DNA of 64,000 nt. Source: Kribbia dieselivorans NBRC 106261 (lineage in GTDB: Bacteria > Actinomycetota > Actinomycetes > Actinomycetales > Dermatophilaceae). Positions within the stretch are counted from its first letter, which is position 1. Every line of letters starts with the position of its first letter. The notes below the pieces were generated by a model. The model had not been told where the DNA came from and made no database searches. It saw nothing but the letters and a program-made list of their open reading frames with translations. This document shows, one piece after another, positions 4,599 through 56,394 of this stretch. The stretch covers positions 1 through 64,000 of the forward strand of contig NZ_BCRE01000004.1 of NCBI RefSeq assembly GCF_001552435.1, read 5' to 3'. Both the position numbers and the translations under genes were made by a program.

Positions 4599-5510
4599 TC
4601 AGGCCGGCAGGATCGTCGGCCTGAGCAGCGACACCAGCAGGAACCCGGCCAGCGACAGCAGCAGAGGCCACACGACCACACCCCACAACAGGCCGCGCCA
4701 CCAGTTGCGCCGGGTGTCCTTGGGTGGGGTGACCTGCTCCGTCACCCCGGCCGGATCGTCGTGTGTCCAGATCGGCAGATCGTCACGTTTGACCGCACCA
4801 CCGGCCGGTGCGGAGGCACCCGCTCGGCCGCGCAGCAACTCGACCACCGCGTACGCCACCGTGCCCAATCCGGCGGGTATGGCCAGCATCCAGAACCAGT
4901 ACCACCGGGTTCCCCACCCGGGGCGCGGACCGGTGATGATCAACGCCAACGTACCCAGGAGGAGTGCGGCGGTGAGTGCTTCGGCGACGCTGATGCCGCT
5001 TGGCCGGTTCGCGTCGACGGCCGCGAGCGCCCCCGAATGTGGCCCGTGCGAGACCAGCCCGGCCACGCGCTTCTCCGCCGAGCCCCACTTCGACAACTCC
5101 GAGTGACGACCGAACTGGAGGAGCGGCATGATCGACGTGGACGTGGCTCCCTCGCCCGGCGGCATGACCACACGTACGCGGTCGTCGAACCAGCCACGCG
5201 CGTCGTCCTTGAGCGTGTACGCGACGATCCCGCCGGCCGTGGATGCGGTGCCTTCGGTCAGAATCAGACGAATGCCCGTCTGCATGGTCGTCGTCGGGCC
5301 CTCCTGCGACCCGGAGGCCAGCGCGATGTCGGACACCGTCCCGGCATCGGCGTCGCGCTGCAGATCGTCGAGGGTGACCATCTGATAGCCCGACCGCACC
5401 CCGAGCAGGAGGATGACGGCCCACAACGCGATGATCCCCAGCCCCGCACTCAGTTGCCAGTATCGCGTCCGGTTCGTCTCGCGGGCCTGCCCGAGGTAGT
5501 CGCTCGTCAC
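4599..5510 (-). CDS. Predicted integral membrane protein, unknown function
   Basis: About 303 residues from a GTG start (VTSDYLGQARETN). I see a transmembrane helix near residues 20-41 (LGIIALWAVILLLG), a hydrophilic, probably extracytoplasmic domain of about 130 residues, a middle pair of helices (ALLLGTLALIITG and WFWMLAIPAGLGTVAYAVV), and a C-terminal helix (VVVWPLLLSLAGFLLVSLL). The frame stays open upstream to 5666, but that would overlap the divergent reductase gene. An ATG at 5597 is an alternative start. No family is recognised. Confidence 0.6.
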   Translation of the reverse strand: MTSDYLGQARETNRTRYWQLSAGLGIIALWAVILLLGVRSGYQMVTLDDLQRDADAGTVSDIALASGSQEGPTTTMQTGIRLILTEGTASTAGGIVAYTLKDDARGWFDDRVRVVMPPGEGATSTSIMPLLQFGRHSELSKWGSAEKRVAGLVSHGPHSGALAAVDANRPSGISVAEALTAALLLGTLALIITGPRPGWGTRWYWFWMLAIPAGLGTVAYAVVELLRGRAGASAPAGGAVKRDDLPIWTHDDPAGVTEQVTPPKDTRRNWWRGLLWGVVVWPLLLSLAGFLLVSLLRPTILPA

Positions 5511-20519: not shown

Positions 20520-20554
20520 GTCGCCTCCAATGTGGTGGGATCTGAGATCCTGTT

Positions 20555-26416: not shown

Positions 26417-26463
26417 ACGCGCCGACCGACGCTCCATTACGTCCATTTGGATCTCTTGACCAA

Positions 26464-26474
26464 TGGTTAGACCA
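26464..26474. promoter_or_regulatory. FadR-like operator copy 3 within a promoter spacer
   Basis: TGGTTAGACCA is a TGGTnnnACCA dyad lying between TTGACC (26456-26461) and TACGCT (26479-26484), elements spaced 17 bp apart like a sigma-70-type promoter. It is 45 bp upstream of the ligase start. The position suggests direct repression. Confidence 0.7.
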
Positions 26475-26519
26475 AAAGTACGCTTGACCCCACATCCGAT
26501 CCGAAGGGAATCACAGCCA

Positions 26520-35283: not shown

Positions 35284-35335
35284 GTTTCGTCACCGACGGC
35301 GGGTTGCCACCGGCGTCATCGCACGCTAGCGTCAT

Positions 35336-35346
35336 TGGTCAGACCA
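35336..35346. promoter_or_regulatory. FadR-like operator copy 4, perfect
   Basis: TTGGTCAGACCAA (35335-35347) contains the perfect core TGGTCAGACCA. It lies immediately before the AAAGGAGG ribosome site of the MDR gene and downstream of a possible promoter, TTGCCA (35304-35309), 17 bp, TAGCGT (35327-35332), so it would cover the start of transcription. Confidence 0.75.
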
Positions 35347-35357
35347 AAGGAGGATCG

Positions 35358-36389: not shown

Positions 36390-37196
36390 ATGCCCGAGAA
36401 CTCCACTCCGACGACCGAACCGCAATTCGTGCGCCGCGCCCACGAGGCCGGCATCGCGTGGATCACCCTGGACAGTCCGGCCACGCGCAACGCCCTCGGT
36501 GATGCCCTGCTCGACGAACTCATCGCCGCCTTCGAGTCCGCCCGAGACGATGAGCAGGTGCGGGTGGTCGTGCTGGGCAGTTCCCATGACCGGGTGTTCT
36601 CCGCCGGCGGCGACCTCAAGGCCTTTGCCAGCGATGCTCCGGCCATCCAGAAGTACGCCGGTCTCGATCGGTTCCCGCGTCTGTACCAACTGATCGGTGG
36701 GCTGGGCAAGCCGGTCATCTGCGCGGCCGGAGGTGACGTCTTGGCCGGTGCCTTCGGTCTGGCACTGGCCTGTGACCTCGTCATCGCCAAGGAGGGTGTC
36801 CGGTTCGGGTGCCCCGAGATCAATGTCGGCGTCTTTCCGTTCATGATCTCCGCGCTGATCTACCGCAACCTGCCGCGCGTGCGGGCCAATGAGTTGATGA
36901 TGCTCGGCGATCCGATCGATGCCCAGGAGGCCGCCGACCTGGGCATCGTCAACCGCGTCGTGCCGGCCGACGAGTTCGACACCGTGGTGCGGGCCTGGGC
37001 GCAGCGGCTGGCGACCAAGTCGCCGTTGCTCATGCAGTTGGGCAAGAACGCCATCGATGCCACCCGGGATCTCGCGCTGCCGGAGGCGCTCTCGGCCCTG
37101 CAGTCGCAGCTGGCGCTGGCCTTCACCACCGAGGACATCAAGGAGGGCGTCGCGGCCTTCCGGGAGAAGCGCGACCCGCGCTGGCAGATGCGCTGA
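36390..37196 (+). CDS. Enoyl-CoA hydratase/isomerase family protein
   Basis: A 268-residue crotonase. VFSAGGDLKAF is the first oxyanion strand, AGGDVLAGAFGLALACDLVIA the second, and GCPEINVGVFPFM retains the C-terminal catalytic Glu. The first hydratase Glu is not at its usual place (AGAFG instead of GGGxE), so an isomerase or other crotonase reaction is as likely as hydration. It is second in the unit led by the MDR gene. Confidence 0.83.
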   Translation: MPENSTPTTEPQFVRRAHEAGIAWITLDSPATRNALGDALLDELIAAFESARDDEQVRVVVLGSSHDRVFSAGGDLKAFASDAPAIQKYAGLDRFPRLYQLIGGLGKPVICAAGGDVLAGAFGLALACDLVIAKEGVRFGCPEINVGVFPFMISALIYRNLPRVRANELMMLGDPIDAQEAADLGIVNRVVPADEFDTVVRAWAQRLATKSPLLMQLGKNAIDATRDLALPEALSALQSQLALAFTTEDIKEGVAAFREKRDPRWQMR

Positions 37197-37223
37197 CCTC
37201 CTGGTGCCAATCCTCTTGACATT

Positions 37224-37246
37224 TGGTCCAACCATAATATGGTTGG
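37224..37246. promoter_or_regulatory. FadR-like operator copy 5 with an overlapping second palindrome
   Basis: TGGTCCAACCA (37224-37234) is a TGGTnnnACCA dyad. It overlaps CCAACCAT-AAT-ATGGTTGG (37228-37246), a perfect 8-bp dyad. TTGACA (37216-37221) and TATGGT (37238-37243), 16 bp apart, form a likely promoter, so both dyads sit inside it. It is 64 bp upstream of the ligase gene. Confidence 0.72.
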
Positions 37247-37298
37247 AGCGATAGAGATGTGGGGTCCGGATGGGACTCCCTGGCGAGAGAGGCGCACG

Positions 37299-38957
37299 AT
37301 GGCGTTCGCGAAGGTGACGGATCGGTATTCGATCGAGGCGATCGACGAGTTCTACGCCACGGGCCAATGGCGCTCGGAGACGCTCTTCGACCTCCTGTCG
37401 GGGCACGCGGCGGCGACGCCCGATCGGGTCTTCCTCACCGATGACCACCGGTCGCTGACCTTCGGCGAACTGCGCGATCAGGCCATCGCGTTCGCCGGTG
37501 GTCTGCGGGCGCGCGGCATCGGCGCCGGCGATCGCGTCAGCGTCCAGGTGCCCAACTGGGTGGAGTTCGCCGTCATCGCGGTGGCCCTCCAGCGGCTCGG
37601 CGCGATCATGGTGCCGATCATGCCCATCTACCGTGACGACGACGTGGCCTACATCGTCGACAACGCCGGGGTGCGCCTGGCCATCACGAGCCAGACCTTC
37701 AAGAAGTTCGACTACGCCGCCATGTACGGGCGGATTCGCGAGACCGTGTCGGCGATCGAGGACGTGGTCGTCGTGCGCGGGGAGACGCCGGGCCAGGGCT
37801 TCACCGCCTATGCGGATGTGGTGGCCGACGGCGCTGGGGCGACCGACGAGTCCTTGGGTGAGAAGTTCGGGCCGGATGAGCCGGTCGTCATCGTCTACTC
37901 CAGCGGGACGACCTCGCGTCCGAAGGGGTGTCTGCACACCTTCAACACGCTCGCCTGCGGTTCCCGGCTGTTGGCCAAGGCCTGGGCCATCACCCAGGAC
38001 GACGTCCAGTTCGGGCCGTCACCGATCACCCACACCACGGGGCTGGTGACCAGCATCATCCTGCCGATGATGCATGGCGCCGCGTCGCACGTCATGGAGT
38101 CGTGGGTGCCGGAGGCCGGGGCGCAGCAGATCCAGGAGCACCGCTGCACCGTCGCGGTCACCGCCACGACCTTCCTGCAGACCCTGTTGGACGCCTATGA
38201 CCCGCAGCGCCACGACCTCACCAGCCTGCGGTTGTGGACCTGTGCCGGATCGCCGATCCCGGCCAGCATCATCGAGCGGGCCGCCGTCGAGCTGCCGACC
38301 CTCAAGGTGCTCAGCCTGTACGGCCGCACCGAGAACGTCACCACGACGATGTGCACCATCGACGACCCGGTGGAGCGATCGCTGACCTCCGACGGCCGCG
38401 TGCTGCCCTTCCAGCAGGTGCGGATCATCGATGGGTCGGGTCACGAGGTGCCGCGCGGCGAGGAGGGTGACATCGCCTACAAGGGCGCGATGCACATGCT
38501 CGAATACATCAACAACCCCACCGAGACGGCAGCCCTGTTCACCGAGGATGGCTTCTCGCGCTCCGGCGACCTCGGCACGATGGACGCCGACGGCTTCGTT
38601 CGCGTCACCGGGCGCACCAAGGACATCGTGATCCGGGGTGGAATGAACATCTCCGTGCGGCACGTGGAGGATCTACTGAGCAAGCACCCGGCCGTCAGTC
38701 AGGTCGCAGCCGTCGGCATGCCGGACGAGCGACTTGGCGAGAAGGTGTGCCTCTACCTGGTGCCGACCGAGCAGGGGACGGGCCTGACCCTGGATGACGT
38801 GCGTGACTACCTCCTGGGCGAGGGTCTGGCCATCCAGAAGGTGCCCGAGCGGCTCGAGATCGTCGAGGGCCTGCCGATGACCGCGACCGGCAAGGTCCAG
38901 AAGCATGTGCTGCGCTCCATGATCAAGGAGCGGATCGCCGCCGAGCAGAACGCCTGA
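37299..38957 (+). CDS. Acyl-CoA ligase, cyclohexanecarboxylate-CoA ligase (AliA)-like
   Basis: 552 residues, clear paralogue of the ligase at 26520, sharing YSIEAIDEFYATGQW, MPIYRDDDVAYIV, the ATP loop YSSGTTSRPKGCLH near residue 199, the GPSPITHTTGLVTS block and TGKVQKHVLRSM with the catalytic Lys. It should make the CoA ester of a cyclic or branched acid; a different chain or ring preference from its paralogue would explain keeping both. It is alone between operator copy 5 and a strong terminator. ATG 37299 has AGAGAGG upstream. Confidence 0.82.
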   Translation: MAFAKVTDRYSIEAIDEFYATGQWRSETLFDLLSGHAAATPDRVFLTDDHRSLTFGELRDQAIAFAGGLRARGIGAGDRVSVQVPNWVEFAVIAVALQRLGAIMVPIMPIYRDDDVAYIVDNAGVRLAITSQTFKKFDYAAMYGRIRETVSAIEDVVVVRGETPGQGFTAYADVVADGAGATDESLGEKFGPDEPVVIVYSSGTTSRPKGCLHTFNTLACGSRLLAKAWAITQDDVQFGPSPITHTTGLVTSIILPMMHGAASHVMESWVPEAGAQQIQEHRCTVAVTATTFLQTLLDAYDPQRHDLTSLRLWTCAGSPIPASIIERAAVELPTLKVLSLYGRTENVTTTMCTIDDPVERSLTSDGRVLPFQQVRIIDGSGHEVPRGEEGDIAYKGAMHMLEYINNPTETAALFTEDGFSRSGDLGTMDADGFVRVTGRTKDIVIRGGMNISVRHVEDLLSKHPAVSQVAAVGMPDERLGEKVCLYLVPTEQGTGLTLDDVRDYLLGEGLAIQKVPERLEIVEGLPMTATGKVQKHVLRSMIKERIAAEQNA

Positions 38958-38981
38958 TCGGCCTGCCGCGACTGTCGAGAC

Positions 38982-39018
38982 CGAATGCCCGAACCGCCCA
39001 GCGCGGTTCGGGCATTCG
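38982..39018 (+). terminator. Perfect 16-bp hairpin after the ligase gene
   Basis: CGAATGCCCGAACCGC pairs without mismatch with 39003-39018 across a 5-base loop, 24 bp after the ligase stop. It separates the ligase transcript from the TetR gene. Confidence 0.78.
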
Positions 39019-39063
39019 TCATGTCGGGGCGGGGCTGCTGGGCGCTGACCCTAGGATCGCCGC

Positions 39064-39648
39064 ATGACGAGTCGCACGCGTGAGTCCACCGAGGTGAGGC
39101 GGGCACGCATTCTCGCGGCCGCGGCGACGTTGTTCTCGGACCGGGACTACGCGCGCGTGTCCATGTCCGACATCGCGGGGGCCGTGGGCATGGCTGCCTC
39201 GACGATCTATTGGCACTTCTCCGGCAAGCAGGAGATTCTCGTCACGTTGTTCGATGAATGCCTGGATGCCCTGCTGTCTGACGAGGCTCAGGCCATCGCC
39301 GCGGCGTCGGACCCCCTGGGTGCGCTACGAGCGATCGTGCGTCGCCACGTGGACTTCGTGGTGCACGAACGGCGGACCGCCCAGACCTACTACCGGCAGG
39401 CCGGCCACATCGCCGAGGCGGATGCCGGGCGGATCCGTACCAAGCAACGTGCGTACATCGGCGGGTGGAGCGACCTGCTCGTCCGCGCCCGCCCCGACCT
39501 TTCGGCCGAGGAGGCGGAGCAGTTGGTGCGAGCCGCCATCGGCGCCCTCCAATCCGATCTCTACCACCACTCGGCGCGCAGCATCGAGCAGCGGCAGACG
39601 GATCTGAGTGCCATCGCGGGCCGCGTGCTGGGCCTGCTCTCGATCTGA
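39064..39648 (+). CDS. TetR/AcrR family regulator
   Basis: 194 residues. RRARILAAAATLFSDRDYARVS and IAGAVGMAASTIYWHFSGKQ form the TetR helix-turn-helix at about residues 12-58. The C-terminal domain has the TetR_C shape of fatty-acid or steroid-type repressors, ending with HSARSIEQRQTDL. It is encoded directly upstream of an operon whose leader holds an 18-bp perfect palindrome (39733-39750), its best target candidate. Ligand unknown, probably an acyl-CoA. Confidence 0.86.
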   Translation: MTSRTRESTEVRRARILAAAATLFSDRDYARVSMSDIAGAVGMAASTIYWHFSGKQEILVTLFDECLDALLSDEAQAIAAASDPLGALRAIVRRHVDFVVHERRTAQTYYRQAGHIAEADAGRIRTKQRAYIGGWSDLLVRARPDLSAEEAEQLVRAAIGALQSDLYHHSARSIEQRQTDLSAIAGRVLGLLSI

Positions 39649-39704
39649 CATCCCTCGTCACTGGAGAAACCCACATTCACGGGTGTGGCTCAGGCTTGCC
39701 ATTT

Positions 39705-39715
39705 TGGTCTGACCT
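39705..39715. promoter_or_regulatory. FadR-like operator copy 6
   Basis: TGGTCTGACCT differs by one base from the perfect core. It lies between TTGCCA (39696-39701) and CATGAT (39720-39725), spaced 18 bp, and 18 bp upstream of the TetR-type palindrome. The operon downstream would thus answer to two regulators. Confidence 0.65.
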
Positions 39716-39732
39716 ATTGCATGATTCTCTCA

Positions 39733-39750
39733 CTCGAATGATCATTCGAG
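39733..39750. promoter_or_regulatory. 18-bp perfect palindrome, candidate TetR operator
   Basis: CTCGAATGATCATTCGAG is fully self-complementary. It ends just before the AAGGAG sequence of the operon leader and lies 85 bp after the TetR stop. Size and symmetry fit a TetR dimer; the adjacent TetR is the natural candidate. Confidence 0.65.
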
Positions 39751-39783
39751 AAGGAGACGTTGCTCAAGGGAGAGGAACATCCA

Positions 39784-41328
39784 ATGTGGCGACACCCCGA
39801 AATCCGCACCCTGCCCGACATCGTTGACGTCTGGGCCGACCGAACGCCGGACCGCGTCGCGCTCGTGGCCGGCGACGCTGAGCTCACGTGGCAGCAACTG
39901 GCCGAACGAGTCATTGACCTCGCCGTGACGCTGGTGAACTGTGGCGAGCCGCGGCAACCCATCGCCTATCTCGGCCACAACACCCTGGAGTTGTGGGTCA
40001 CGTGGTTTGCCGCCAACCGCGCGCGTCGGCCGTTCGTCCCGCTGAACTGGCGCTTGGCCGTGCCGGAGATCGCTGCCCTGCTGCGGGACTGTGCTCCGGC
40101 CGTCGTCGTCACGCAGGAGGACTTCGCCGACGCGTTGCAGACCGCTGTGAGCCAGGTGGCGCAGCCCATCGACCTCTGGCCGTTCGTGAGTGTGGCCGCG
40201 GGCGGGTCGGGTCTGGACCCGCGGCTGACCGGGGTGGACGGCACCGTCGATCTGCCCCGGCCGATCAGCGAGGACATCTCGTTGATCGCCTACACCTCGG
40301 GGACCACGGGTCAACCCAAGGGGGCCTTGCACCGGCATGACGGCTTCGACCTGTCGATCCTCTCGGACGAACTCGAACCCACCATCCGCACCGGCCGCGA
40401 GGACGTCCACCTCATGGCCATGCCGAACTTCCATTTGGCCGGCACGTGGGTCAGTTTGCCGACGCTCTACCACGGCGGCACCGTGGCAATGATCCCGTTC
40501 TTCGAACCGGCTGCCGTGCTCGAGGCCCTGACCCGCCACCGCCCGACCACCCTGTGTCTGGTGCCCACGGCGATCCAGTGGCTGGTCGACGAGGTCAGGC
40601 GGACCGGCGCCGACGTCAGCTCATTGCGCACCCTCATCTATGCCGGCTCGGCCATCACCCCGCCGACCATCGAAGGTGCACTGGAGGCGCTGGGCTGTGA
40701 ACTGCGCCAGTTCTACGGCACCACCGAGACCTACATCATCTCGATCCTTCGGCCGGACGACCACGACGCCTCCCGGCTCGAGCTCGTGGCGTCGGCGGGA
40801 GCACCGGTGCCGCTGGTTCACGTTCGGATCGTCGATCCGATGGACCACGACTGCCCCGCCGGCGAGGTTGGGGAGGTCCTCGTGCGGTCGCCGTATGTCA
40901 TGGCCGGCTACCTGGGACAGCCCGAAGCCAGCGCGGCGGCGTTCACCGACGGTTGGTACCGCACCGGGGATCTGGGATTCCACTCGAGTGCCGGCCAGCT
41001 GACCCTGGTCGACCGGGCCAAGGACATGGTCGTCACCGCCGGCGAGAACGTCTACTCGGTGGAGGTCGAACGGGCCCTGGGCAGCCACCCGGACGTGGCG
41101 ATGGCAGCCGTCATCGGCGTGCCGGACGAGCGCTGGGGCGAGGCCGTCACCGCCTTCGTCGTGCCCGCCCAGGGGCGCGACGTGGACCCGGATGCGCTGC
41201 GGGCGCACTGCCGCGAACACATCGCCGGCTACAAGGTGCCCAAGAGCATCCACATTCGCACATCGCTGCCGCTGACGCCGTCGGGGAAGGTCCGCAAGGT
41301 CGACCTTCGCACCGAGGCCGCGTCGTGA
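39784..41328 (+). CDS. Acyl-CoA synthetase, AMP-forming
   Basis: 514 residues. The ATP loop YTSGTTGQPKGALH lies near residue 169, PNFHLAGTWVSL follows, FYGTTETYI is the adenine motif, GWYRTGDLGF is the hinge and TPSGKVRKVDLR carries the catalytic Lys. It is shorter than the AliA-like pair and belongs to a different ligase branch. It leads an operon with a crotonase and an SDR behind operator copy 6 and the TetR palindrome. ATG 39784 is chosen; a TTG at 39760 with AAGGAG is an alternative. Confidence 0.84.
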   Translation: MWRHPEIRTLPDIVDVWADRTPDRVALVAGDAELTWQQLAERVIDLAVTLVNCGEPRQPIAYLGHNTLELWVTWFAANRARRPFVPLNWRLAVPEIAALLRDCAPAVVVTQEDFADALQTAVSQVAQPIDLWPFVSVAAGGSGLDPRLTGVDGTVDLPRPISEDISLIAYTSGTTGQPKGALHRHDGFDLSILSDELEPTIRTGREDVHLMAMPNFHLAGTWVSLPTLYHGGTVAMIPFFEPAAVLEALTRHRPTTLCLVPTAIQWLVDEVRRTGADVSSLRTLIYAGSAITPPTIEGALEALGCELRQFYGTTETYIISILRPDDHDASRLELVASAGAPVPLVHVRIVDPMDHDCPAGEVGEVLVRSPYVMAGYLGQPEASAAAFTDGWYRTGDLGFHSSAGQLTLVDRAKDMVVTAGENVYSVEVERALGSHPDVAMAAVIGVPDERWGEAVTAFVVPAQGRDVDPDALRAHCREHIAGYKVPKSIHIRTSLPLTPSGKVRKVDLRTEAAS

Positions 41329-41381
41329 CGCTTAGCCCGTCAGAAATCCCCGTCAACCACCGATCCAGGAGGGACACCACC

Positions 41382-42254
41382 ATGTCCAGTTCAGACGCCG
41401 CATCGACCGCGGCCAAGGTCATCTATGAGAAGCGCGGCCCGGTCGCGTGGATCACGTTGAATCGCCCCGAGGTCCGCAACGCCATCGACATCGAGACCCA
41501 TGAGTTGCTCTGTCGGATCTGGGAGGACTTCCGCGACGACGATGACCTGCGCGTGGCGGTCATCACCGGCAGCGACCACACCTTCACCTCGGGAGCGGAC
41601 CTGCGTACCCATGCGCCCGAGTGGCAACAGGTCGGCCCGATGGTCGGCCGAGAGCGCCTGGAGGACGGGGTCAGCGGGATCACCCGCGGACCACTGGCCT
41701 CGATCCCCAAGCCGATCGTCGCCGCCATCGATGGCTGGTGTGTCGGGCACGGCATCGAACTGGCCATGGCCTGTGACCTGCGCATTGCGACGGATCGCGC
41801 GAAGTTCGGCACCTTCGAGGTCCGGCGCGGCATGCACCCGGCCGACGGTGGCATCGTTCGCCTCGTCAACAGCTGCGGCGTCAGCTTCGCAATGGAACTC
41901 CTCCTGACCGGAGATCCCGTCACCGCCGAGCGGGCCTACCACGCCAACATGGTGAACAAGGTCGTGCCGGCCGACCGACTCATCGACGAGACCGAACGCG
42001 TGGTGCAGGCCATTCTGCGCTGCGACCAGGCGGCCATCGAGTCGGCGAAGGAGACGGTGCACGAGATCATCGGCCGGCCACTGCACGACCAGTTGCGCGT
42101 CGAGGCGATGTGGGGTTACGCCCTGTGTGCCAGCAACCCGACGGTGATGGGCCGTTCGCAGGAGTTCTTCACGCGCACCGACGTCGGCCGCGACGGTACG
42201 ACACCCACCCCCTTCACCCCCTTGGCACCCGCCGACGACCGGAAGGACTCCTGA
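41382..42254 (+). CDS. Enoyl-CoA hydratase/isomerase family protein
   Basis: 290 residues, crotonase fold. TFTSGADLRTH is the first oxyanion block, IDGWCVGHGIELAMACDLRIA the second, and FGTFEVRRGMHPADGG takes the place of the usual LPE block but keeps a Glu. The 20-residue C-terminal tail is Thr/Pro-rich. AGGAGGG precedes the ATG at 41382. The stop overlaps the start of the SDR (TGATG). It would hydrate or isomerise the product of the ligase and a dehydrogenase. Confidence 0.83.
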   Translation: MSSSDAASTAAKVIYEKRGPVAWITLNRPEVRNAIDIETHELLCRIWEDFRDDDDLRVAVITGSDHTFTSGADLRTHAPEWQQVGPMVGRERLEDGVSGITRGPLASIPKPIVAAIDGWCVGHGIELAMACDLRIATDRAKFGTFEVRRGMHPADGGIVRLVNSCGVSFAMELLLTGDPVTAERAYHANMVNKVVPADRLIDETERVVQAILRCDQAAIESAKETVHEIIGRPLHDQLRVEAMWGYALCASNPTVMGRSQEFFTRTDVGRDGTTPTPFTPLAPADDRKDS

Positions 42255-43123
42255 TGAGCTACCAGAGCGGCTTTGCCCCAGGGTTGTTCGCCGGACAGGT
42301 GGTCGTCGTCACCGGCGGGGGGAGTGGCATCGGACGGTGCACCGCGCACGAGCTGGCCTCCCTGGGAGCGTCCGTGGTGATCGTCGGACGAAACGAGGCG
42401 AAGTTGGCGGCCGTGGTGGAGGAGATCACGGCCGACGGCGGCCACGTCAGCGCCTACGCCACCGATATCCGCGACGAGGAAGGCGTGGCCGGTGTCGTGG
42501 ATCGGATCCTGTCGGACCACGGCCGGATCGACGGTCTGGTCAACAACGCCGGTGGGCAGTACCGCGCTCCGCTGAAGTCCATCAGCACCAAGGGATTCCG
42601 CGCCGTGGTCGACAACAATCTCGTCGGTGGATTCATCATGATGCGCGAGGTGTACAACCGCCACATGGCCGAGCACGGCGGAGCCATCGTCAACATGATC
42701 GCCGACATCTGGCACGGCTGGCCGAACTTCTCGCACTCCGCAGCCGCCCGGGGTGGAATGTTCACCCTGTCGGAATCCGCGGCGACCGAGTGGGCCGAAT
42801 CGGGGGTGCGGGTCAACACCATTGCACCGGGCTCCATCGCCTCCAGCGGCCTCGACACCTATGACCCGAAGGACACCGAGTTCATTCGCACCGAGGTCAC
42901 TCCCGGGATCCCGCTGCAGCGGTTCGGCACGGAGGCCGAGGTGTCGGCCGCCATCGTCTTCCTGCTCTCGCCGATGGCGGCCTTCATCACGGGTTCCTGC
43001 ATCCGGGTCGATGGTGGGGCTCCCAATGCGCGCCGGGGGTGGTGGCAACTGCAACCGGCCTCGAACAACGAGCCGTTCGACGGGTTCCACCGTGCCCAGG
43101 GGCCGGAGATCCTCAGGGGGTGA
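42254..43123 (+). CDS. SDR family dehydrogenase (enoyl/3-hydroxyacyl-CoA type)
   Basis: 289 residues, close paralogue of the SDR at 19641: TGGGSGIGR, LVNNAGGQYRAPLKSISTKG, MIADIWHGWPNFSHSAAARGG and a C-terminal FDGFHRAQGPE tail are shared. As there, the canonical YxxxK is not obvious, the segment reading SAAARGG instead. It may therefore be an enoyl-CoA reductase-like or catalytically altered SDR. It ends 11 bp inside the convergent dehydratase gene. Confidence 0.83.
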   Translation: MSYQSGFAPGLFAGQVVVVTGGGSGIGRCTAHELASLGASVVIVGRNEAKLAAVVEEITADGGHVSAYATDIRDEEGVAGVVDRILSDHGRIDGLVNNAGGQYRAPLKSISTKGFRAVVDNNLVGGFIMMREVYNRHMAEHGGAIVNMIADIWHGWPNFSHSAAARGGMFTLSESAATEWAESGVRVNTIAPGSIASSGLDTYDPKDTEFIRTEVTPGIPLQRFGTEAEVSAAIVFLLSPMAAFITGSCIRVDGGAPNARRGWWQLQPASNNEPFDGFHRAQGPEILRG

Positions 43124-43517
43124 CCGGTACCCCCACCGACGCGGTGCCGGTGACGACCGTGGCCGCATCGGCCTTGGTCATCGCCAGCGCCAGCGTGGCG
43201 ACCCCGTCGCCCACCTCGGTCACCGTTCCGGTCACGGTGAGCACATCGCCGATCTCGACCGGGGCGACGAAACGCACCTCGAGGGCGCGTAGGTGTTCGA
43301 CGCCGACCCGGTCGGTCAGCGCGGCGGCCAGGATGCCGGCCTGCATCTGACCCATGGCGATCGGCGCGGTGAAGCCGGCGCGGGCGGCGAACTCCGGATC
43401 GTGGTGGAGGGGGTTGAAGTCGCCACCCGCGCCGGCGAAGCGCACGATGTCGGTCTGGGTGATCGGACCGATGGTGCGCGGCTCGAGGGCGGTACCGACC
43501 TGCAGGGTCGTGGTCAT
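43113..43517 (-). CDS. MaoC-like dehydratase, catalytic subunit (HadB-like)
   Basis: A 134-residue hotdog protein. GGDFNPLHHDPEFAARAGFTAPIAMG holds the catalytic Asp and His of the hydratase-2 motif. With the neighbouring 149-residue partner it should make a two-subunit (R)-3-hydroxyacyl-CoA dehydratase of the HadAB type. AAGGGGAG precedes the ATG, and the start overlaps the partner's stop (ATGA). Confidence 0.85.
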   Translation of the reverse strand: MTTTLQVGTALEPRTIGPITQTDIVRFAGAGGDFNPLHHDPEFAARAGFTAPIAMGQMQAGILAAALTDRVGVEHLRALEVRFVAPVEIGDVLTVTGTVTEVGDGVATLALAMTKADAATVVTGTASVGVPVTP

Positions 43518-43963
43518 CGGGCTCCCCTTTCGATGAGGACCTCACGTTGGCGAACGGGCGTCTGGCCTTCTGCGTCGGTATAGGTGGTCTCCAGGGTCAC
43601 CAGGCGCATGGTGCCGCCGCGCTTGCCCTCGCGGGTCTCGTCGGCGATCACGACCCGGCGACCCGTCAGACGATCACCGGCGAGCAGTGGCCGGTCGTAC
43701 TCCCAGCGCACCGACCCCACGACGATCCGGGTCATGTCCAGGCCGAGGCGAGCCACGAAGGCCCGCTGGTCACGATGGTGGCCGGCCACGACGACATGGG
43801 TGGCGGTGGCGGCCGGGGCGGACAGCCCCCGGGCGTGCGCGACAGACGGGTCGGTGTGCACCGGATCCTCGGCGAATGATGCCCGGGCGAACTCGCGGAT
43901 CTTGCCCTCTTCGACGCCGTACTCCACCTCGTCGACGACGAGGCCGACGAGACTTTCGGCCAC
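43514..43963 (-). CDS. FAS1-like dehydratase subunit (HadA-like, MaoC N-terminal type)
   Basis: A 149-residue hotdog protein of the N-terminal MaoC dehydratase type (EDPVHTDPSVAHARGLSAPA, then VVGSVRWEYDRPLLAGDRLTG). It lacks the full hydratase motif and is expected to shape the substrate pocket for the catalytic partner encoded next. The GTG follows AAGGAGGAG. Operator copy 7 is 29 bp upstream, shared with the divergent acyl-CoA dehydrogenase operon. Confidence 0.82.
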   Translation of the reverse strand: MAESLVGLVVDEVEYGVEEGKIREFARASFAEDPVHTDPSVAHARGLSAPAATATHVVVAGHHRDQRAFVARLGLDMTRIVVGSVRWEYDRPLLAGDRLTGRRVVIADETREGKRGGTMRLVTLETTYTDAEGQTPVRQREVLIERGAR

Positions 43964-43992
43964 AACTCCTCCTTCGGAGTCCTTGACGGTTT

Positions 43993-44003
43993 TGGTCAGA
44001 CCT
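43993..44003. promoter_or_regulatory. FadR-like operator copy 7, divergent promoters
   Basis: TGGTCAGACCT, one base off the perfect core, lies between the dehydratase pair (29 bp away on the minus side) and the acyl-CoA dehydrogenase gene (41 bp away). A TTGACG box at 43983-43988 may be the -35 of the plus-strand promoter. Confidence 0.65.
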
Positions 44004-44044
44004 ATAGTACCATTTAGCCATCATTGCGAGGAGAGGAGACGGCT

Positions 44045-45220
44045 GTGGAACTGACCGACTCACCTGACGAGGCGGCCTTCCGTTCGAAGCTGCGAACCTG
44101 GCTCGTCGACACATTGCCCCTGCTGCCCTGGCCGGAACCGGTCACGCTGGAGGGCAAGAAGCCGTTCTGGCAACAGTGGCAACGGCTGTTGTTCGACGCC
44201 GGATATGCCGGCATCAACTGGCCGCGCGAATACGGCGGCCAAGGGGCCAACGAGATCATCCGCGCCATCTACACCGAGGAACTCGACCGGGCCGGCGCCC
44301 CCGAGCGGCTCAACACGATCGGCGAGGACTTCGCCGGACCGACGATCAGCCAGTTCGGCACCTCCGCCCAGAAGGAACGCTTCCTCGAGAAGATCCTGCG
44401 TGGCGAGGAGATCTGGTGCCAGCTCTTCTCCGAACCGGAGGCCGGCTCGGACCTCGCCTCCCTGCGGACGAAGGCGACCAAGGTCGAGGGCGGCTTCCGG
44501 ATCAACGGACAGAAGATCTGGACGTCCCGAGCGCACATCGCCGACCACGCCATCCTCCTGGCCCGCACCGGTGGCGGTGAGCGTCACCGGGGGATCACCT
44601 ACTTCCTCGTGCCGATGGACGCTCCCGGCATTACCGTGCGGCCGTTGGAGCACATGCTCGGTGAGGCGGAGTTCAACGAGGTCTTCCTGGACGACGTCTT
44701 CATCCCCGACGAGATGGTCGTCGGCGAGGTCGACGGCGGCTGGTCGGTGGCCATGGGCACGTTGGCCTTCGAGCGGGTGGCGATCGCCACCGGGCGCGTA
44801 AACACCAAGCGCGCTGTCGACGAGATCGTGGCTGACGTGCGATCCATGACCGACGACGACGGTCAACCGCTGGGCCGCCACGAGGGCGTCCGGCAGCAGG
44901 TGGCCGACCTCTACGGACGGGCCCTCATCCACCAGCTCATCGGTCAGCGCGTGATCAGCCTGGCGGCCACCGATGGCCCGCCCGGTCCGGTCACCTCGAT
45001 CGGCAAGTTGTACTTCTGCCCCCTCGTCGAGGACCTGGCCGACTTCCGGCTCTCGCTCGAACCCCTCGGCGGTCAGACGGGGTTGGACGATCCCGGTCAG
45101 GTGGCGGGCCGCTGGCTTAGGCTGGCCTATCAGGCCCGAGGGACCGCCATCGCCGGCGGATCGACCTTCATTCAGCGCAACATCGTCGCCGAGCGCATGC
45201 TCGGCATGCCGAGGAGTTGA
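44045..45220 (+). CDS. Acyl-CoA dehydrogenase
   Basis: A 391-residue FadE-type ACAD. NWPREYGGQGA, the substrate/FAD block CQLFSEPEAGSDLASL near residue 135, INGQKIWTSRAHIADHAILLART, and a C-terminal FIQRNIVAERMLGMPRS are typical of actinobacterial steroid- and branched-acid-type ACADs. Such enzymes often pair with a second shorter ACAD subunit; the 355-residue protein at 48114 would suit. GTG 44045 is preferred because GGAGAGGAG precedes it. The stop overlaps a TTG of the next gene. Confidence 0.87.
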   Translation: MELTDSPDEAAFRSKLRTWLVDTLPLLPWPEPVTLEGKKPFWQQWQRLLFDAGYAGINWPREYGGQGANEIIRAIYTEELDRAGAPERLNTIGEDFAGPTISQFGTSAQKERFLEKILRGEEIWCQLFSEPEAGSDLASLRTKATKVEGGFRINGQKIWTSRAHIADHAILLARTGGGERHRGITYFLVPMDAPGITVRPLEHMLGEAEFNEVFLDDVFIPDEMVVGEVDGGWSVAMGTLAFERVAIATGRVNTKRAVDEIVADVRSMTDDDGQPLGRHEGVRQQVADLYGRALIHQLIGQRVISLAATDGPPGPVTSIGKLYFCPLVEDLADFRLSLEPLGGQTGLDDPGQVAGRWLRLAYQARGTAIAGGSTFIQRNIVAERMLGMPRS

Positions 45221-45225
45221 ACGTC

Positions 45226-47208
45226 GTGGCAGAGAACACGCAGACCTACGTCTGGCACCCGACCCCCGAGCAGGTCGCGGACGCGAACGTCACGCGGCTC
45301 GCCCGGGCCCACGGAATCACGGGGATCGACGAACTGCGGGCCCGGTCCGTCGAGGACGTCGCGTGGTACTGGGATGCCGCCATTCAAGACCTGGGATTGC
45401 CGTTCCGGCAGCCGTACGAGCGCGTGCTGGACATCTCGCGGGGGATCGAGCACCCCGACTGGTTCATCGGCGGCCGGCTCAACATCGTCGACGCCTGCCT
45501 GTCGCGCTGGACCGCCGATCCGGTCTCGGCCGCCCGCGACGCGGTCGTGCACGAGGCCGAGGACGGCACGGTGACCCGGCTGACCTACGCCGAGTTGGAG
45601 GACCAGGTGTCCAGGGCCGCTGCCGGACTTCGCCGGCTCGGCGTGGGCCGCGGCGATGCGGTCGCGATCTATCTACCCATGATTCCGGCGGCCGTCATCA
45701 GCCTGTACGCGGTGGCGCGCATCGGTGCCGTCCTGGTGCCGCTGTTCTCCGGTTTCGCGCCGACCGCCATCGCGTCGCGGTTGCAGGATGCCGACGCCAA
45801 GGCGGTCATCGTCGCCGACGGCACCGTGCGCCGTCGCAAGCGGGTCGCCATGAAGCCGCTCCTGGACGAGGCCCTGCGCGACTGCCCGTCGGTCGAGTCG
45901 GTGATCGTCGTGCGCAACCTCGGCGAGGGCGCCGCGAACGACGGTGAGGCCGACACCTCCGAGGGACACCCCGCGGAGATCGCGTGGGAGACCTTGGTGG
46001 ACAACGACGGCGATTCCGAACCCGTCGCGGAGATGTCGGCCGCCGAGACATTCATGCTGGCCTACACCTCCGGTACGACCGGGCGACCCAAGGGAGCCGT
46101 GCACACGCAGGCAGGCTTCCTGGTCAAGGTTGCCAGCGAGGTCGCCTACTCGTTCGACGTCTCCGCCGGCGGGGTCTTCTGTTGGATCACCGACATGGGT
46201 TGGGTCATGGGCCCGCTGTCCATGGTCGGCACCCACGCCAACGGCGCGACGCTGCTGCTCTACGAAGGCAGTCCCGATGTACCGGACCTCAACCGCCTGT
46301 GGAACCTCGTCGCACGGCACCGGGTGACGATGCTCGGGGTGTCACCAACACTGATCCGCACGCTGCGCCTGACCGAGGCCACGACCGACCTCCCGGATCT
46401 GAGTTCGGTCCGGGTGATCGGCTCCACCGGTGAACCGTGGGACGCCGCCGCATACGAGTGGATGGCCCGGGACCTGTTCGGCGGGCGTGTGCCGGTGATC
46501 AACTTCTCCGGCGGCACCGAGGTAGGCGGGTCGTTCCTGGCTCCGTACCCGGTCGAGTCGATTCGCAGCTGCTCCCTCGGCGGGCCCTCGCTTGGCATGG
46601 ACGTCGACGTGGTCGACGACCAGGGACACTCGGTGCGCGGTGAGGTCGGCGAGCTCGTGTGTCGCCAGCCCTGGCCGGCCATGACCCGCAGCATCTGGAA
46701 GGACGACGAGCGCTACCTGGAGGCGTACTGGTCGACCTTCCCAGGGATGTGGCGCCACGGCGACTATGCGCTCGTCGAGGACGGACAGTGGTTCATCCGT
46801 GGCCGCTCGGACGACGTCATGAACGTCGCGGGCAAGCGCCTGGCTCCGGCCGAGGTGGAAGCCGTGATGGTGACGCACCCGGCGGTCGCCGAGGCAGCCG
46901 CCATCGGGGTGCCGGACGCGAAGAAGGGCGAAAGCGTGTGGGCCTTCTGGGTGCCGCGCGCGGATGCCGATGTCGATGTGTCGGCCGAGCTGCGCGACAT
47001 GGTCGCCGACCAGGTGGGCAAGCCGTTCGCGCCGAGCCTGGTGCAGCGGGTCACGCGCCTGCCCAAGACCCGGTCGCAGAAGATCATGCGCCGCGCCGTC
47101 CGGGCCGCGGCGATGGGTACCGATCCCGGTGATCTGGCCGGAGCGGAGAACCCGGAGGCGATCGACGAGATCCGGGCGTCGATCGGCGACCGCAGACCGA
47201 CGGCGTGA
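45226..47208 (+). CDS. Acetyl-CoA synthetase-like acyl-CoA ligase
   Basis: 660 residues, longer than the other ligases and of the AcsA/acetoacetyl-CoA synthetase shape. DISRGIEHPDWFIGGRLNIVDAC is the N-terminal ACS-type block, the ATP loop YTSGTTGRPKGAVHTQAG lies near residue 279, INFSGGTEVGG replaces the adenine motif, RGRSDDVMNVAGKRLAPAEVE is the hinge, and TRSQKIMRR has the acetylatable catalytic Lys. It would activate a short or branched acid. GTG 45226 is chosen because GAGGAG lies nine bases upstream. Confidence 0.84.
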   Translation: MAENTQTYVWHPTPEQVADANVTRLARAHGITGIDELRARSVEDVAWYWDAAIQDLGLPFRQPYERVLDISRGIEHPDWFIGGRLNIVDACLSRWTADPVSAARDAVVHEAEDGTVTRLTYAELEDQVSRAAAGLRRLGVGRGDAVAIYLPMIPAAVISLYAVARIGAVLVPLFSGFAPTAIASRLQDADAKAVIVADGTVRRRKRVAMKPLLDEALRDCPSVESVIVVRNLGEGAANDGEADTSEGHPAEIAWETLVDNDGDSEPVAEMSAAETFMLAYTSGTTGRPKGAVHTQAGFLVKVASEVAYSFDVSAGGVFCWITDMGWVMGPLSMVGTHANGATLLLYEGSPDVPDLNRLWNLVARHRVTMLGVSPTLIRTLRLTEATTDLPDLSSVRVIGSTGEPWDAAAYEWMARDLFGGRVPVINFSGGTEVGGSFLAPYPVESIRSCSLGGPSLGMDVDVVDDQGHSVRGEVGELVCRQPWPAMTRSIWKDDERYLEAYWSTFPGMWRHGDYALVEDGQWFIRGRSDDVMNVAGKRLAPAEVEAVMVTHPAVAEAAAIGVPDAKKGESVWAFWVPRADADVDVSAELRDMVADQVGKPFAPSLVQRVTRLPKTRSQKIMRRAVRAAAMGTDPGDLAGAENPEAIDEIRASIGDRRPTA

Positions 47209-47229
47209 TCGCCTCGAGGCGCGCGAACG

Positions 47230-48003
47230 CTAATCCGGCAAGGTGATGTCGGTGCGCACCTCGACCTTGAGGAGCTCCTCGGCATAGACGTGAACGTGAC
47301 GGTCCATTCGCCTCATGGCGGCTGGGCCGTCACCGTCACGGATGGCGCGATTGATGCTCTGGTGGGCCTTGAAGGTGGTCTCCATGACCTCGTCGTCGAT
47401 GAACTGCTCGTTCTCCGTGGCCTCGTAGATGGCAGGGGAGAGGGCCATCATCAATCCGGTCATCAGTTCGTTGTGCCCAGCCTGCGCGACACCGACGTGC
47501 CAGTCGATGTTGGCCTGGAGGAAGGAAGCCAGGTCGGGGGCATCCTTGATTCGCTGGTTGGCGGCCTCCAGCACGGCGAGGTCCTCCTCGGTGCGGTTGC
47601 GTGCCGCGAGCTTGGCACTGAACGGCTCCAGGCCCTCGCGGGTCTCGAGCAGGGCCTTGAGTCGAATCTGGCGCCCGCGGATGAGCAGGCCGACGCTGCG
47701 CGCCATCGACTCCTCGCCCGGGCGCTGCACGAAGGCGCCACCGGCCCGGCCAGCCTTGATGCGGACCAGGCCCTGGACCTCGAGGATGCGCAAGGCCTCC
47801 CGAACCGTGGTGCGACTCATGTTCGTCTGCACGACGAGCTCACGCTCCGGCGGCAGGGGTGTGCCTTCGACGAACTCCCCGGACAGAATGCGTTCGCGCA
47901 ACTCGTCGGCCAGGACATCCGAGGCCTTCGGCACGGACATCGGCGCCAGCTGGATCGTGGAGCGCCCCGAGCGCTCCTTGGCGGGCTCTTCGGCAGTGGG
48001 CAT
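47230..48003 (-). CDS. GntR family FCD-type regulator, FadR-like; candidate master regulator
   Basis: 257 residues. The winged helix at about residues 25-95 includes GTPLPPERELVVQTNMSRTT and VREALRILEVQGLV; the recognition helix SRTTVREAL matches FadR's RTTLREV. The C-terminal FCD domain (about 105-245) binds an acyl or organic acid in relatives, with HxxH-type positions such as IDWHVGVAQAGHN and TFKAHQSINRAI. Operator copy 8 (48038-48048) is 34 bp upstream, and nine more copies stand before other operons of the island, so it is probably the regulon's controller and autoregulated. It points opposite to the ACAD at 48114. Confidence 0.88.
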   Translation of the reverse strand: MPTAEEPAKERSGRSTIQLAPMSVPKASDVLADELRERILSGEFVEGTPLPPERELVVQTNMSRTTVREALRILEVQGLVRIKAGRAGGAFVQRPGEESMARSVGLLIRGRQIRLKALLETREGLEPFSAKLAARNRTEEDLAVLEAANQRIKDAPDLASFLQANIDWHVGVAQAGHNELMTGLMMALSPAIYEATENEQFIDDEVMETTFKAHQSINRAIRDGDGPAAMRRMDRHVHVYAEELLKVEVRTDITLPD

Positions 48004-48037
48004 GGCGACATCCTTCTGTGGAACAACTATGGTCTAT

Positions 48038-48048
48038 TGGTCAGACCT
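48038..48048. promoter_or_regulatory. FadR-like operator copy 8, regulator's own divergent region
   Basis: TGGTCAGACCT, one base off the perfect core, lies 34 bp from the GntR start and 65 bp from the acyl-CoA dehydrogenase start at 48114. An extra ATGGTC half-site is at 48029-48034. It would allow autoregulation. Confidence 0.68.
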
Positions 48049-48113
48049 AATGTACTCTCGCAGCATCGAACATTTCGAGACTAGATCACGACGTCCGGAG
48101 GGGAGTCGACAAC

Positions 48114-49181
48114 ATGCGGTGGGAACTGTCCTTCGAGCAGCAGGAATTCCACGAGGCCTTCACGGGGTGGCTCGACCATGTGGCGGATTCACCGTCCGTG
48201 CGCGAATGGGCCACCCACGGCGGAGCGCCGTTCGAGGCGCGTCTGGCCGAGGACGGCTGGCTGGCGGCCGGGTTGGCCGAGGCCGCCGGCGGTGCCGGCG
48301 GGGGACTGGTCGAACTGGCGCTGGCCAGTGAGGCGATGGGGTCGCACGGCGCTCCGTCGGCCGCCTGGCTGTCGACGATGGCCGTGCTGCCGGCGGTCGC
48401 GGGTCGTCCCGAGGTCATCGAGGGCCTCGTCGAACGCGGCGAGTTCGTCGTGTGGGTCGGTGCCTCCGACCGGATCCCCGGAGGTGGCCGGGCGCTTCCC
48501 CTGGTCGACGGTACGGTGACCGGCGAGGTCCGACTCGTGCTCGGTGGCAGTCGGGCGGCGCGGTTCGTCGTGCCGGTCGCCACCGGTGGGGGAGTCGGGC
48601 TGGCCCTGGTCGAGGCCGCCGACGTGCAGCGTGGCGAACGATCGCTGCTCGACCAGACCCGCGAGGCCTGTGACGTTCGGTTCGACGGCGCTCCGGCGCA
48701 GGTGCTGGACGTCGATGCCGAGGCCATCCTGACGCAGGTGGCCCGGCGGGCCGCCGTCCTGGTCTCCGCCGACTCGCTCGGCGCCGCGGCGCGCATGCTC
48801 GATCTGGCGGTCGAGTACAGCAAGCAGCGTCAGCAGTTCGGCGTCCCGATCGGTTCGTTCCAGGCCGTCAAGCATGCGGCGGCGACGATTCTCGTCGGGG
48901 TCGAGGCGGCCCGGTCGATCATCTATCCGGCCGCCGCCGCGGTCGACGAAGGCCACGAGATGGCCGAGCCGTGGGCGTGTGCCGCCAAGGCCCAGGTGAC
49001 GAAGTCCGGGGTGGCTGCGGCCGACAGCGCCCTGACGATGCACGGGGCCATCGGCTACACGTGGGAACACGACCTGCACCTGTACTACAAGCGAGCCAAG
49101 CTCGACGCGCGCCTGTTCGGCGCTCCGTCGGCGTGGAACGAGCGGTTGGCGTCCCAGCTCGAACTCACCCCACAGTCATGA
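48114..49181 (+). CDS. Acyl-CoA dehydrogenase, short subunit type
   Basis: A 355-residue ACAD, about 30 shorter than standard. The N-terminal domain has WLAAGLAEAAGGAGGG, the middle domain lacks the usual TEPxxGSD block, while the C-terminal domain keeps RQQFGVPIGSFQAVKHAAA and MHGAIGYTWEHDLHLYYKRAK. This shape is typical of the partner subunit of heteromeric ACADs in actinobacterial steroid-type catabolism. A pairing with 44045 or another ACAD here is inferred. GGAGGGGAG precedes the ATG. Confidence 0.83.
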   Translation: MRWELSFEQQEFHEAFTGWLDHVADSPSVREWATHGGAPFEARLAEDGWLAAGLAEAAGGAGGGLVELALASEAMGSHGAPSAAWLSTMAVLPAVAGRPEVIEGLVERGEFVVWVGASDRIPGGGRALPLVDGTVTGEVRLVLGGSRAARFVVPVATGGGVGLALVEAADVQRGERSLLDQTREACDVRFDGAPAQVLDVDAEAILTQVARRAAVLVSADSLGAAARMLDLAVEYSKQRQQFGVPIGSFQAVKHAAATILVGVEAARSIIYPAAAAVDEGHEMAEPWACAAKAQVTKSGVAAADSALTMHGAIGYTWEHDLHLYYKRAKLDARLFGAPSAWNERLASQLELTPQS

Positions 49182-49189
49182 TTGCTGTT

Positions 49190-49200
49190 TGGTCTGACCA
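49190..49200. promoter_or_regulatory. FadR-like operator copy 9, perfect, before the seven-gene operon
   Basis: TGGTCTGACCA is the perfect core. It lies in the spacer between TTGCTG (49182-49187) and TATGGT (49205-49210), 17 bp apart, and 37 bp upstream of the next ACAD start. The downstream TATGGTTGG also occurs after copy 5. Confidence 0.75.
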
Positions 49201-49237
49201 TTGGTATGGTTGGCCCAGCTAAGGAAGGGATGGAACC

Positions 49238-50404
49238 GTGGACTTCGATCTGACCGAGGATCAACAGGAGATTCGAAAGGCCGTGCGCGAACTCGCGGGC
49301 ACCTTCGATGACCAGTATTGGATGGAGAAGGACCTCGCGCACGAGTTCCCCACCGAGTTCTACGAGGCGTTCGCCAAGGGTGGTTGGCTCGGGGTGACCA
49401 TGCCCGAGCAGTACGGCGGTCATGGCATGGGCATCACCGAGGCCTCGATCCTCCTCGAGGAGGTCGCTGCCTCCGGCGCCGGCATGAACGGGGCCAGCTC
49501 GATGCACCTGTCGATCTTCGGCATGCACCCGGTCGTCGTGCACGGCTCCGACGAACTCAAGGCCCGCACGCTGCCGCGCATCGTCAATGGTGACCTGCAT
49601 GTCTGCTTCGGGGTGACCGAACCCGGCGCCGGCCTGGACACGACGAAGATCACGACGTTCGCCAAGCGCGACGGCGACGACTACGTCGTCAACGGCCGCA
49701 AGGTCTGGATCTCGAAGGCGATGGAGTCCGAGAAGATCCTGCTCCTGACGCGCACCACCAAGGCCGAGGACGTCGAGAAGAAGACCCAGGGCATGACCCT
49801 GTTCCTGACCGACCTCGACCGCGACAAGGTCGAGATCCGCCCCATCAAGAAGATGGGTCGCAACGCGGTCACCTCCAACGAGCTGTACATCGACAACCTG
49901 CGCATCCCGGCGGAGGATCGTGTCGGCGAGGAGGGGCAGGGCTTCAAGTACATCCTCGACGGGCTCAACCCGGAGCGGATGCTCGTCGCCGCCGAAGCCC
50001 TCGGCATCGGTCGCGCAGCGCTGCGCACGGCCGTGAAGTACGGCAACGACCGTGAGGTGTTCGGCCGCCCGATCGGCAAGAACCAGGGCATCCAGTTCCC
50101 GCTGGCCGACTCGCTCGCCCGACTCGACGCCGCCGAGCTCGTCCTGCGCAAGGCCACGTGGCTGTACGACATCGGTCGCCCGTGTGCCAAGGAGGCCAAC
50201 ATGGCCAAGTACCTCTGCGCCGACGCCGGCTTCGAGGCCGCCGATCGTGCCGTGCAGACCCACGGCGGCATGGGCTACTCGGAGGAGTACAACGTCTCGC
50301 GTTACTTCCGGGAGTCACGTCTGACCCGGATCGCCCCGCTCAGCCAGGAGATGGTTCTCAACTACCTCGGCGAGCACGTCCTCGGCCTTCCCCGGAGCTA
50401 CTGA
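49238..50404 (+). CDS. Acyl-CoA dehydrogenase, isovaleryl-CoA dehydrogenase-like catalytic position
   Basis: A 388-residue ACAD. FGVTEPGAGLDTTKITT is the FAD/substrate block, NGRKVWISKA the beta domain, and DREVFGRPIGKNQGIQ and QTHGGMGYSEEYNVSRYFRES the C-terminal part. The usual EGT Glu near the end is absent (RIAPLSQEM instead). A Glu lies in GLNPERMLVA, the position used as base by isovaleryl-CoA dehydrogenase, so catalysis may use that residue. It leads an operon with SDR, thiolase, CoA-transferase, lyase, SDR and crotonase genes. Confidence 0.85.
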   Translation: MDFDLTEDQQEIRKAVRELAGTFDDQYWMEKDLAHEFPTEFYEAFAKGGWLGVTMPEQYGGHGMGITEASILLEEVAASGAGMNGASSMHLSIFGMHPVVVHGSDELKARTLPRIVNGDLHVCFGVTEPGAGLDTTKITTFAKRDGDDYVVNGRKVWISKAMESEKILLLTRTTKAEDVEKKTQGMTLFLTDLDRDKVEIRPIKKMGRNAVTSNELYIDNLRIPAEDRVGEEGQGFKYILDGLNPERMLVAAEALGIGRAALRTAVKYGNDREVFGRPIGKNQGIQFPLADSLARLDAAELVLRKATWLYDIGRPCAKEANMAKYLCADAGFEAADRAVQTHGGMGYSEEYNVSRYFRESRLTRIAPLSQEMVLNYLGEHVLGLPRSY

Positions 50405-56217: not shown

Positions 56218-56312
56218 TCAGGTATCGCCCTCGTTCGACGCTCCGGCGTGCGTGGGCGACTCACCCCAGTGGGGGAGGTGGATGACCCCATCGGGGGATG
56301 CTCTCCCATTGT

Positions 56313-56323
56313 TGGTCAGACCA
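56313..56323. promoter_or_regulatory. FadR-like operator copy 10, perfect, before the importer operon
   Basis: TGGTCAGACCA is the perfect core, extended to TTGGTCAGACCAA. It lies 71 bp upstream of the solute-binding protein start, so uptake and breakdown would share one regulator. Confidence 0.75.
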
Positions 56324-56394
56324 AAATAAAGGCATGCCACACCGGTGGCATCGAATCACTGTGAGCCCCGAGCTCCATGACCCCGAGGTGTCCG

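Follow-up and report, generated by a model that had tools for sequence, protein, structure and literature searches.

A candidate doubly repressed promoter ahead of an acyl-CoA ligase operon: a regional GntR/FCD-type site and an 18-bp palindrome beside a TetR-family gene

How many regulators act on one short promoter, and can they be named from the DNA around it? The question is raised by a 135-bp gap which separates the stop codon of a TetR-family gene (39648) from the ATG of an acyl-CoA ligase gene (39784) in the window, that is, in the whole analyzed stretch of 64,000 nucleotides from Kribbia dieselivorans NBRC 106261. The operon downstream of the gap consists of ligase, crotonase, and SDR genes, in that order. 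Judging from the sequence, it appears to break down an acyl compound and to have two off-switches at its promoter, the second of which is probably worked by the neighbouring regulator gene. Our main reading, to which we give a probability of about 0.6, is that 39649-39783 is a doubly repressed promoter on which a GntR/FCD regulator and the adjacent TetR act together as an AND gate. This reading draws on sequence features, predicted promoter geometry, and conservation of the regional sites, and from these we infer the pairing of each protein with its DNA, the direction of control, and the ligands.

Layout of the Promoter Region

In the 5′ to 3′ direction the elements of the gap follow each other as TTGCCA, TTGGTCTGACCTA, CATGAT, CTCGAATGATCATTCGAG, and GGGAGAGG (Table 1). 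The TTGCCA/CATGAT pair was the sole promoter-like match which the consensus scan found in 38900-39850. The palindrome begins 84 bp after the TetR stop codon and ends 33 bp before the ligase ATG; it is separated from TTGGTCTGACC by 18 bp and from the whole 13-bp site by 16 bp, and the predicted −10 box sits within these 16 bp. The centres of the two sites are 31.5 bp apart, which corresponds to three turns of B-DNA. Judged from the −10 box, the start of the palindrome would coincide with the expected start of the transcript. The sequence-only reading had described a fully palindromic 18-mer located 18 bp past an operator copy and ahead of the ribosome site, with a TetR gene ending just upstream. 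The sequence and coordinates agree with this description.

Table 1. Positions of genes and candidate control elements in the window, with the orthologous sites in a second genome of the same family (G219).
Feature	Position	Strand	Basis	G219 site
Regional-type site ATGGTTAGACCAA before ligase gene	26463..26475	.	10/12	
Regional site TTGGTCAGACCAA before zinc dehydrogenase gene	35335..35347	.		944452
Regional site TTGGTCCAACCAT before another ligase gene (37239)	37223..37235	.	in spacer of TTGACA-16-TATGGT	946310
TetR-family regulator gene (TetR_N, TetR_C_24), presumed local repressor	39064..39648	+	Pfam	
Predicted −35 box TTGCCA	39696..39701	+	consensus scan	
Candidate regional GntR/FCD-type operator TTGGTCTGACCTA, 13 bp, filling the promoter spacer	39704..39716	.	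motif scans	
Predicted −10 box CATGAT	39720..39725	+	consensus scan	
Perfect 18-bp palindrome CTCGAATGATCATTCGAG, candidate TetR operator at predicted transcription start	39733..39750	.		
Likely ribosome-binding site GGGAGAGG for ligase ATG 39784	39768..39775	+	from sequence	
AMP-forming acyl-CoA ligase gene	39784..41328	+	Pfam AMP-binding, 245 bits	
Crotonase (enoyl-CoA hydratase family) gene	41382..42254	+		
SDR oxidoreductase gene	42254..43123	+		
Regional site TTGGTCAGACCTA before acyl-CoA dehydrogenase gene	43992..44004	.		950659
GntR/FCD regulator gene, presumed owner of regional sites	47230..48003	−	Pfam GntR + FCD	
Regional site TTGGTCAGACCTA between GntR gene and divergent acyl-CoA dehydrogenase gene	48037..48049	.		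954689
Regional site TTGGTCTGACCAT before acyl-CoA dehydrogenase gene	49189..49201	.		955898
Regional site TTGGTCAGACCAA before substrate-binding protein gene	56312..56324	.		

The Regional Motif and Its Presumed Regulator

The operator consensus of GntR/FCD regulators such as PdhR and FadR is of the TGGTC.GACCA kind. The window regulator resembles E. coli PdhR and FadR in having GntR plus FCD domains, with 67.1 bits for GntR (cut-off 27) and 82.3 bits for FCD (cut-off 24.3), which places it in the GntR/FCD subfamily. No NCBIfam equivalog reached its cut-off, the best being PdhR with 97.9 bits of 330. The E. coli-type FadR families NF003444 and TIGR02812 gave 37.9 and 33.1 bits against 189 and 249.2. 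This regulator is FadR-like in its presumed operator only.

On the + strand of the window TTGGTCNGACCAA was matched at nine places with at least 10/12 positions, against a mean of 1.45 in shuffles. Eight of the nine precede genes of the cluster by our reading, and the match at 20554 lies inside an open reading frame. Genome-wide, the pattern TNGGTCNGACCNA occurs at 11 sites (five in the window and six outside) and its reversed control at one. The other promoter found in 37150-49300 likewise holds a regional-type site in its spacer.

Conservation in Other Replicons

Among 238 genomes of the order, the own one included, just one other genome, G219 from the same family, has a close relative of the GntR regulator (72% identical); two further genomes have relatives of 35-36%. 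Gene order in the G219 cluster largely follows that of the window, and sites of at least 10/12 stand at five orthologous promoters (Table 1). A sixth match (957579) falls outside the orthologous promoters, and weaker sites precede a second ligase (9/12) and the gene for substrate-binding protein (8/12, counterpart of the window site at 56312). In the 80 kb of G219 examined, the TetR gene had no match at 1e-10, and ligase and crotonase had distant matches only (31% and 37%). A 64% relative of the SDR lies elsewhere in this stretch. Between the orthologs of the ligase 37239 and MaoC genes, G219 has another ligase.

The search with the window ligase led to a Mycobacterium paragordonae plasmid (positions 130000-178000), where genes for ligase (46%), SDR (77%), and crotonase (74%) are adjacent, in the order ligase-SDR-crotonase. 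Nearby lies a gene of the FadR/GntR family with 66% identity to the window regulator. The plasmid also holds relatives of the window zinc dehydrogenase (60%), crotonase (63%), ligase (53-54%), and acyl-CoA dehydrogenase (73%). Its 48 kb contain seven motif matches of at least 10/12 versus 1.75 in shuffles, four of them before annotated genes and three inside genes. By our reading, ATGGTCTGACCAT precedes the plasmid ligase operon and overlaps the −10 box of TTGACC-17-TATGGT; therefore, the operon bears the regional motif in two distant replicons. A site of the TTGGTC.GACCAA type is kept together with the GntR regulator both in G219 and on the plasmid. In the plasmid ligase promoter no perfect palindrome is longer than 8 bp, and no match to the 18-mer exceeds 10/18. 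A TetR gene elsewhere on this stretch is a distant relative of the window TetR (29% over 49 residues). As a separate observation, the plasmid cluster relative adjoins ring-hydroxylating and extradiol dioxygenase genes, a neighbourhood which hints that the substrate is aromatic or carries a ring.

The sequence-only reading had suggested a design of an own plus a regional regulator. With a GntR/FCD gene in the cluster, recurrent promoter sites, and conservation in two other replicons, the regional half of this design is well supported by sequence comparison. The TetR half, for which adjacency, a unique perfect dyad at the predicted start, and the occurrence of the core near a TetR gene once elsewhere speak, is the best guess.

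How widely is the operon itself distributed? No match to the ligase at E at most 1e-100 came from the other 185 family genomes searched, nor any to the crotonase at E at most 1e-70 from the other 240 class genomes searched. In view of this rarity in the family, in the class, and in G219, the TetR gene, its operator, and the operon look like a rare module set into the cluster. Base composition does not distinguish the module from its surroundings. Since TetR, ligase, and crotonase are missing in the examined G219 cluster and the plasmid promoter is without the palindrome, TetR and palindrome look lineage-specific. The regional layer is common to distant replicons, and the TetR layer seems to have been added in one lineage.

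Uniqueness of the Palindrome

Within the window the 18-mer has one match even when up to three mismatches are allowed, and in the assembled genome there is one exact copy plus one three-mismatch match on another contig. The sequence-only reading had named many copies at unrelated places as one refuter; the genome search found the 18-mer to be single-copy. With 3.29 Mb in 310 contigs, the assembly is 96.8% complete and may therefore have missed a copy.

The 14-bp core CGAATGATCATTCG occurs in two of 393 other genomes of the class. In one of them (G681) the copy, around 1501-1514 of the extracted locus, lies between divergent genes which we read as TetR and MMPL-like transporter genes. An imperfect second copy is present at the same locus, and the two are likely the operator pair of the TetR of that genome. 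The other copy precedes an argC-like gene by our reading. One more was detected among 80 other genomes of the G681 genus, and it is not beside a TetR gene. Elsewhere, then, the core adjoins a TetR gene in at least one case, without doing so regularly. The literature search gave no match for the core. Judged by title, nothing relevant was found for AATGATCATT with TetR, for TGAATGA/TCATTCA with FadR, or for dual control by TetR plus GntR.

Two other roles of the palindrome were considered and rejected: a terminator, as no T-run follows it, and a second GntR site, as it bears no resemblance to that motif. A hairpin with a 16-bp stem at 38982-39018, between the upstream ligase gene and the TetR gene, is probably a terminator. 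Its outer arms CGAATG...CATTCG are the hexamers of the 39733 palindrome, but 25 bp apart.

The TetR Gene and Its Relatives

The protein belongs to the TetR family by its TetR_N domain (57.2 bits, cut-off 24), and TetR_C_24 scored 29 bits. Its best NCBIfam family, SACE_7040 (NF050111), gave 113 bits, below the cut-off of 250. The single-sequence structure prediction had a mean pLDDT of 43.9 and was not used. Six bases before the TetR ATG, TAGGAT (39052-39057) is predicted as the gene's own promoter, a position which suggests a leaderless transcript. No site similar to the palindrome was seen ahead of the TetR gene itself.

In the genomes searched no TetR relative exceeded about 45% identity, and the highest figures were short alignments; no close ortholog was found on which the palindrome could be footprinted. 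Several relatives of about 40% stand beside acyl-CoA ligase or beta-oxidation genes: those on Rhodococcus plasmids adjoin AMP-ligase, thiolase, or MaoC genes, and one in genome G816 adjoins an AMP-ligase gene. The relative in genome G597 has molybdopterin-binding and HAD genes as neighbours, and that on an M. aubagnense plasmid has hypothetical and transposase genes.

Do these relatives share an operator? The survey covered 59 TetR genes including the window's own, with the weak relatives L036-L043, and also L023, left out, as well as L019, a duplicate of L090. TTAGTGNNCACTAA was present upstream at 10/12 or better in 15 of the 59 and in 4 of 2360 shuffled stretches. By hand count from the listing, all 15 carriers are among the 26 genes with recognition helix SGPAVYRHF. 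The best match to TTAGTGNNCACTAA up- or downstream of the window TetR is 7/12. No 18-mer like that of the window was found near the closest relatives in the palindrome scan, and a 40% relative at locus L035 has no matching operator. Among 13 loci scanned, dyads of the TAGTGATT-N4 type were above own-locus shuffles in three: L080, L081, and L090. These loci, two from Rhodococcus plasmids and one a paralog within the own genome, carry dyads of the type TAGTGATT-N4-(A/C)TTCACTA at 4688, 4694, and 4684, respectively. They look like the operator type of that TetR clade.

Alternative Explanations

Could the palindrome be a chance dyad without function, so that the GntR site alone matters? Length by itself says little, because a perfect palindrome of at least 18 bp is present in 35 of 60 Markov sequences with the length and dinucleotide make-up of the window, and the window itself holds three. 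The equivalent plasmid promoter has a GntR-type site, and its longest perfect palindrome is 8 bp. However, only about 0.0005 perfect 18-bp palindromes are expected inside the 135-bp gap, and about 0.02 over the 25 counted intergenic stretches of the window (2,484 bases, gene limits partly set by hand). This one lies at a predicted transcription start beside a TetR gene. The position of the palindrome tells more than its length, and of the three alternatives considered we regard chance as the least likely. An action in RNA, with the GntR site alone controlling transcription, seems improbable too, though a little less so. With transcription expected to start near 39732, CUCGAAU-GAUC-AUUCGAG would form a stem-loop at the very 5′ end of the transcript, stabilising the ligase mRNA or tuning translation, and this stem-loop belongs to the minimum-energy fold of 39730-39800 (z −2.1). 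However, the stem leaves the ribosome site uncovered in the predicted fold. The loop GATC is itself palindromic, which a stem-loop does not need (by chance this would be expected about 1 time in 16) and a DNA dyad requires.

Slightly ahead of both, and still unlikely, is an operator used by a regulator whose gene lies elsewhere in the genome, with the adjacent TetR controlling something else. The TetR gene is not arranged divergently to the ligase gene and is predicted to have a promoter of its own, and the window site is unlike the operators of the relatives. As described in a survey of streptomycetes (PMC3511530), 67 of 372 TetR-type genes were neither divergent from their neighbours nor probably co-transcribed with them, and the 200-bp rule given there covers divergent pairs only. 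Against this, a remote regulator would be expected to have further sites, but no second copy within two mismatches is present in the genome, and the site lies very near the TetR gene. Binding of the adjacent TetR to the palindrome is plausible.

Proposed Mechanism

According to the two-repressor reading, the GntR/FCD regulator, acting on the acyl-CoA catabolic cluster as a whole, would bind TTGGTCTGACCTA between −35 and −10 and block RNA polymerase. This block would last until the inducer builds up, which is probably one of the pathway's acyl-CoAs. A second, operon-specific block would come from the adjacent TetR, bound to the palindrome over the transcription start, and might be lifted by the substrate of the operon itself or by the CoA ester of that substrate. 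The ligands of both regulators are suggested by analogy. Since both proteins would block the same promoter, the release of both would be needed, and expression of ligase, crotonase, and SDR would depend on both signals.

More tentatively, we suggest a history of this promoter. An operon shared by an actinobacterial chromosome and a mycobacterial plasmid, and already wired to GntR, may have gained a TetR gene with its operator in one lineage. The possible result is a double-repressor AND gate around the −10 box, with both sites on the same face and three turns apart. If this is true, the sequence shows how a second layer of control was acquired step by step. The cluster-wide motif at the ligase operon is common to distant replicons, and TetR control seems to have been added. 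The analysis names a likely regulator, together with a likely operator, for an acyl-CoA catabolic cluster that is uncharacterised, and the two sites make a compact promoter, a candidate two-signal switch. The arrangement is tidy but ordinary in kind, and the comparative sign of a shared versus an added layer is the useful extra.

Comparison with Known Systems

The qsd operon of Rhodococcus erythropolis, compared here by its description in PMC6262395, offers a similar arrangement. There a TetR repressor, QsdR, adjoins an operon with an acyl-CoA ligase gene, palindromes lie in the gap between regulator and operon, and a predicted FadR site and a FadR gene are nearby; therefore, the two-layer design is not new. 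However, the predicted FadR site described there precedes the −35 box of qsdR rather than lying in the operon promoter, and the operon, as described, encodes a lactonase and a ligase, without crotonase or SDR. Repression by QsdR is lifted by lactone signals (PMC6262395).

In mycobacteria, acyl-CoA catabolic genes are likewise repressed by a TetR protein, BkaR or Fad35R, whose operator is an even-centred dyad with a 16-bp core, as presented in PMC3920632. The BkaR operator is also carried by relatives of the window TetR, and TTAGTGNNCACTAA fits the BkaR core given in that paper. At the window TetR the core GTTA(N)T(N4)A(N)TAAC is missing, so that the even-centred dyad is what is shared. The recognition helix of the window TetR is ASTIYWHF, in contrast to SGPAVYRHF in the relatives with the BkaR-type motif. 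As both helix and site differ, a BkaR site is not expected at the window TetR, and its membership of the BkaR group was rejected by the absence of the operator. According to the same source, TetR regulators are generally autoregulatory, and BkaR is divergent and autoregulated, unlike the window TetR. DNA binding of BkaR/Fad35R is reduced by palmitoyl-CoA (PMC4418694, PMC3920632).
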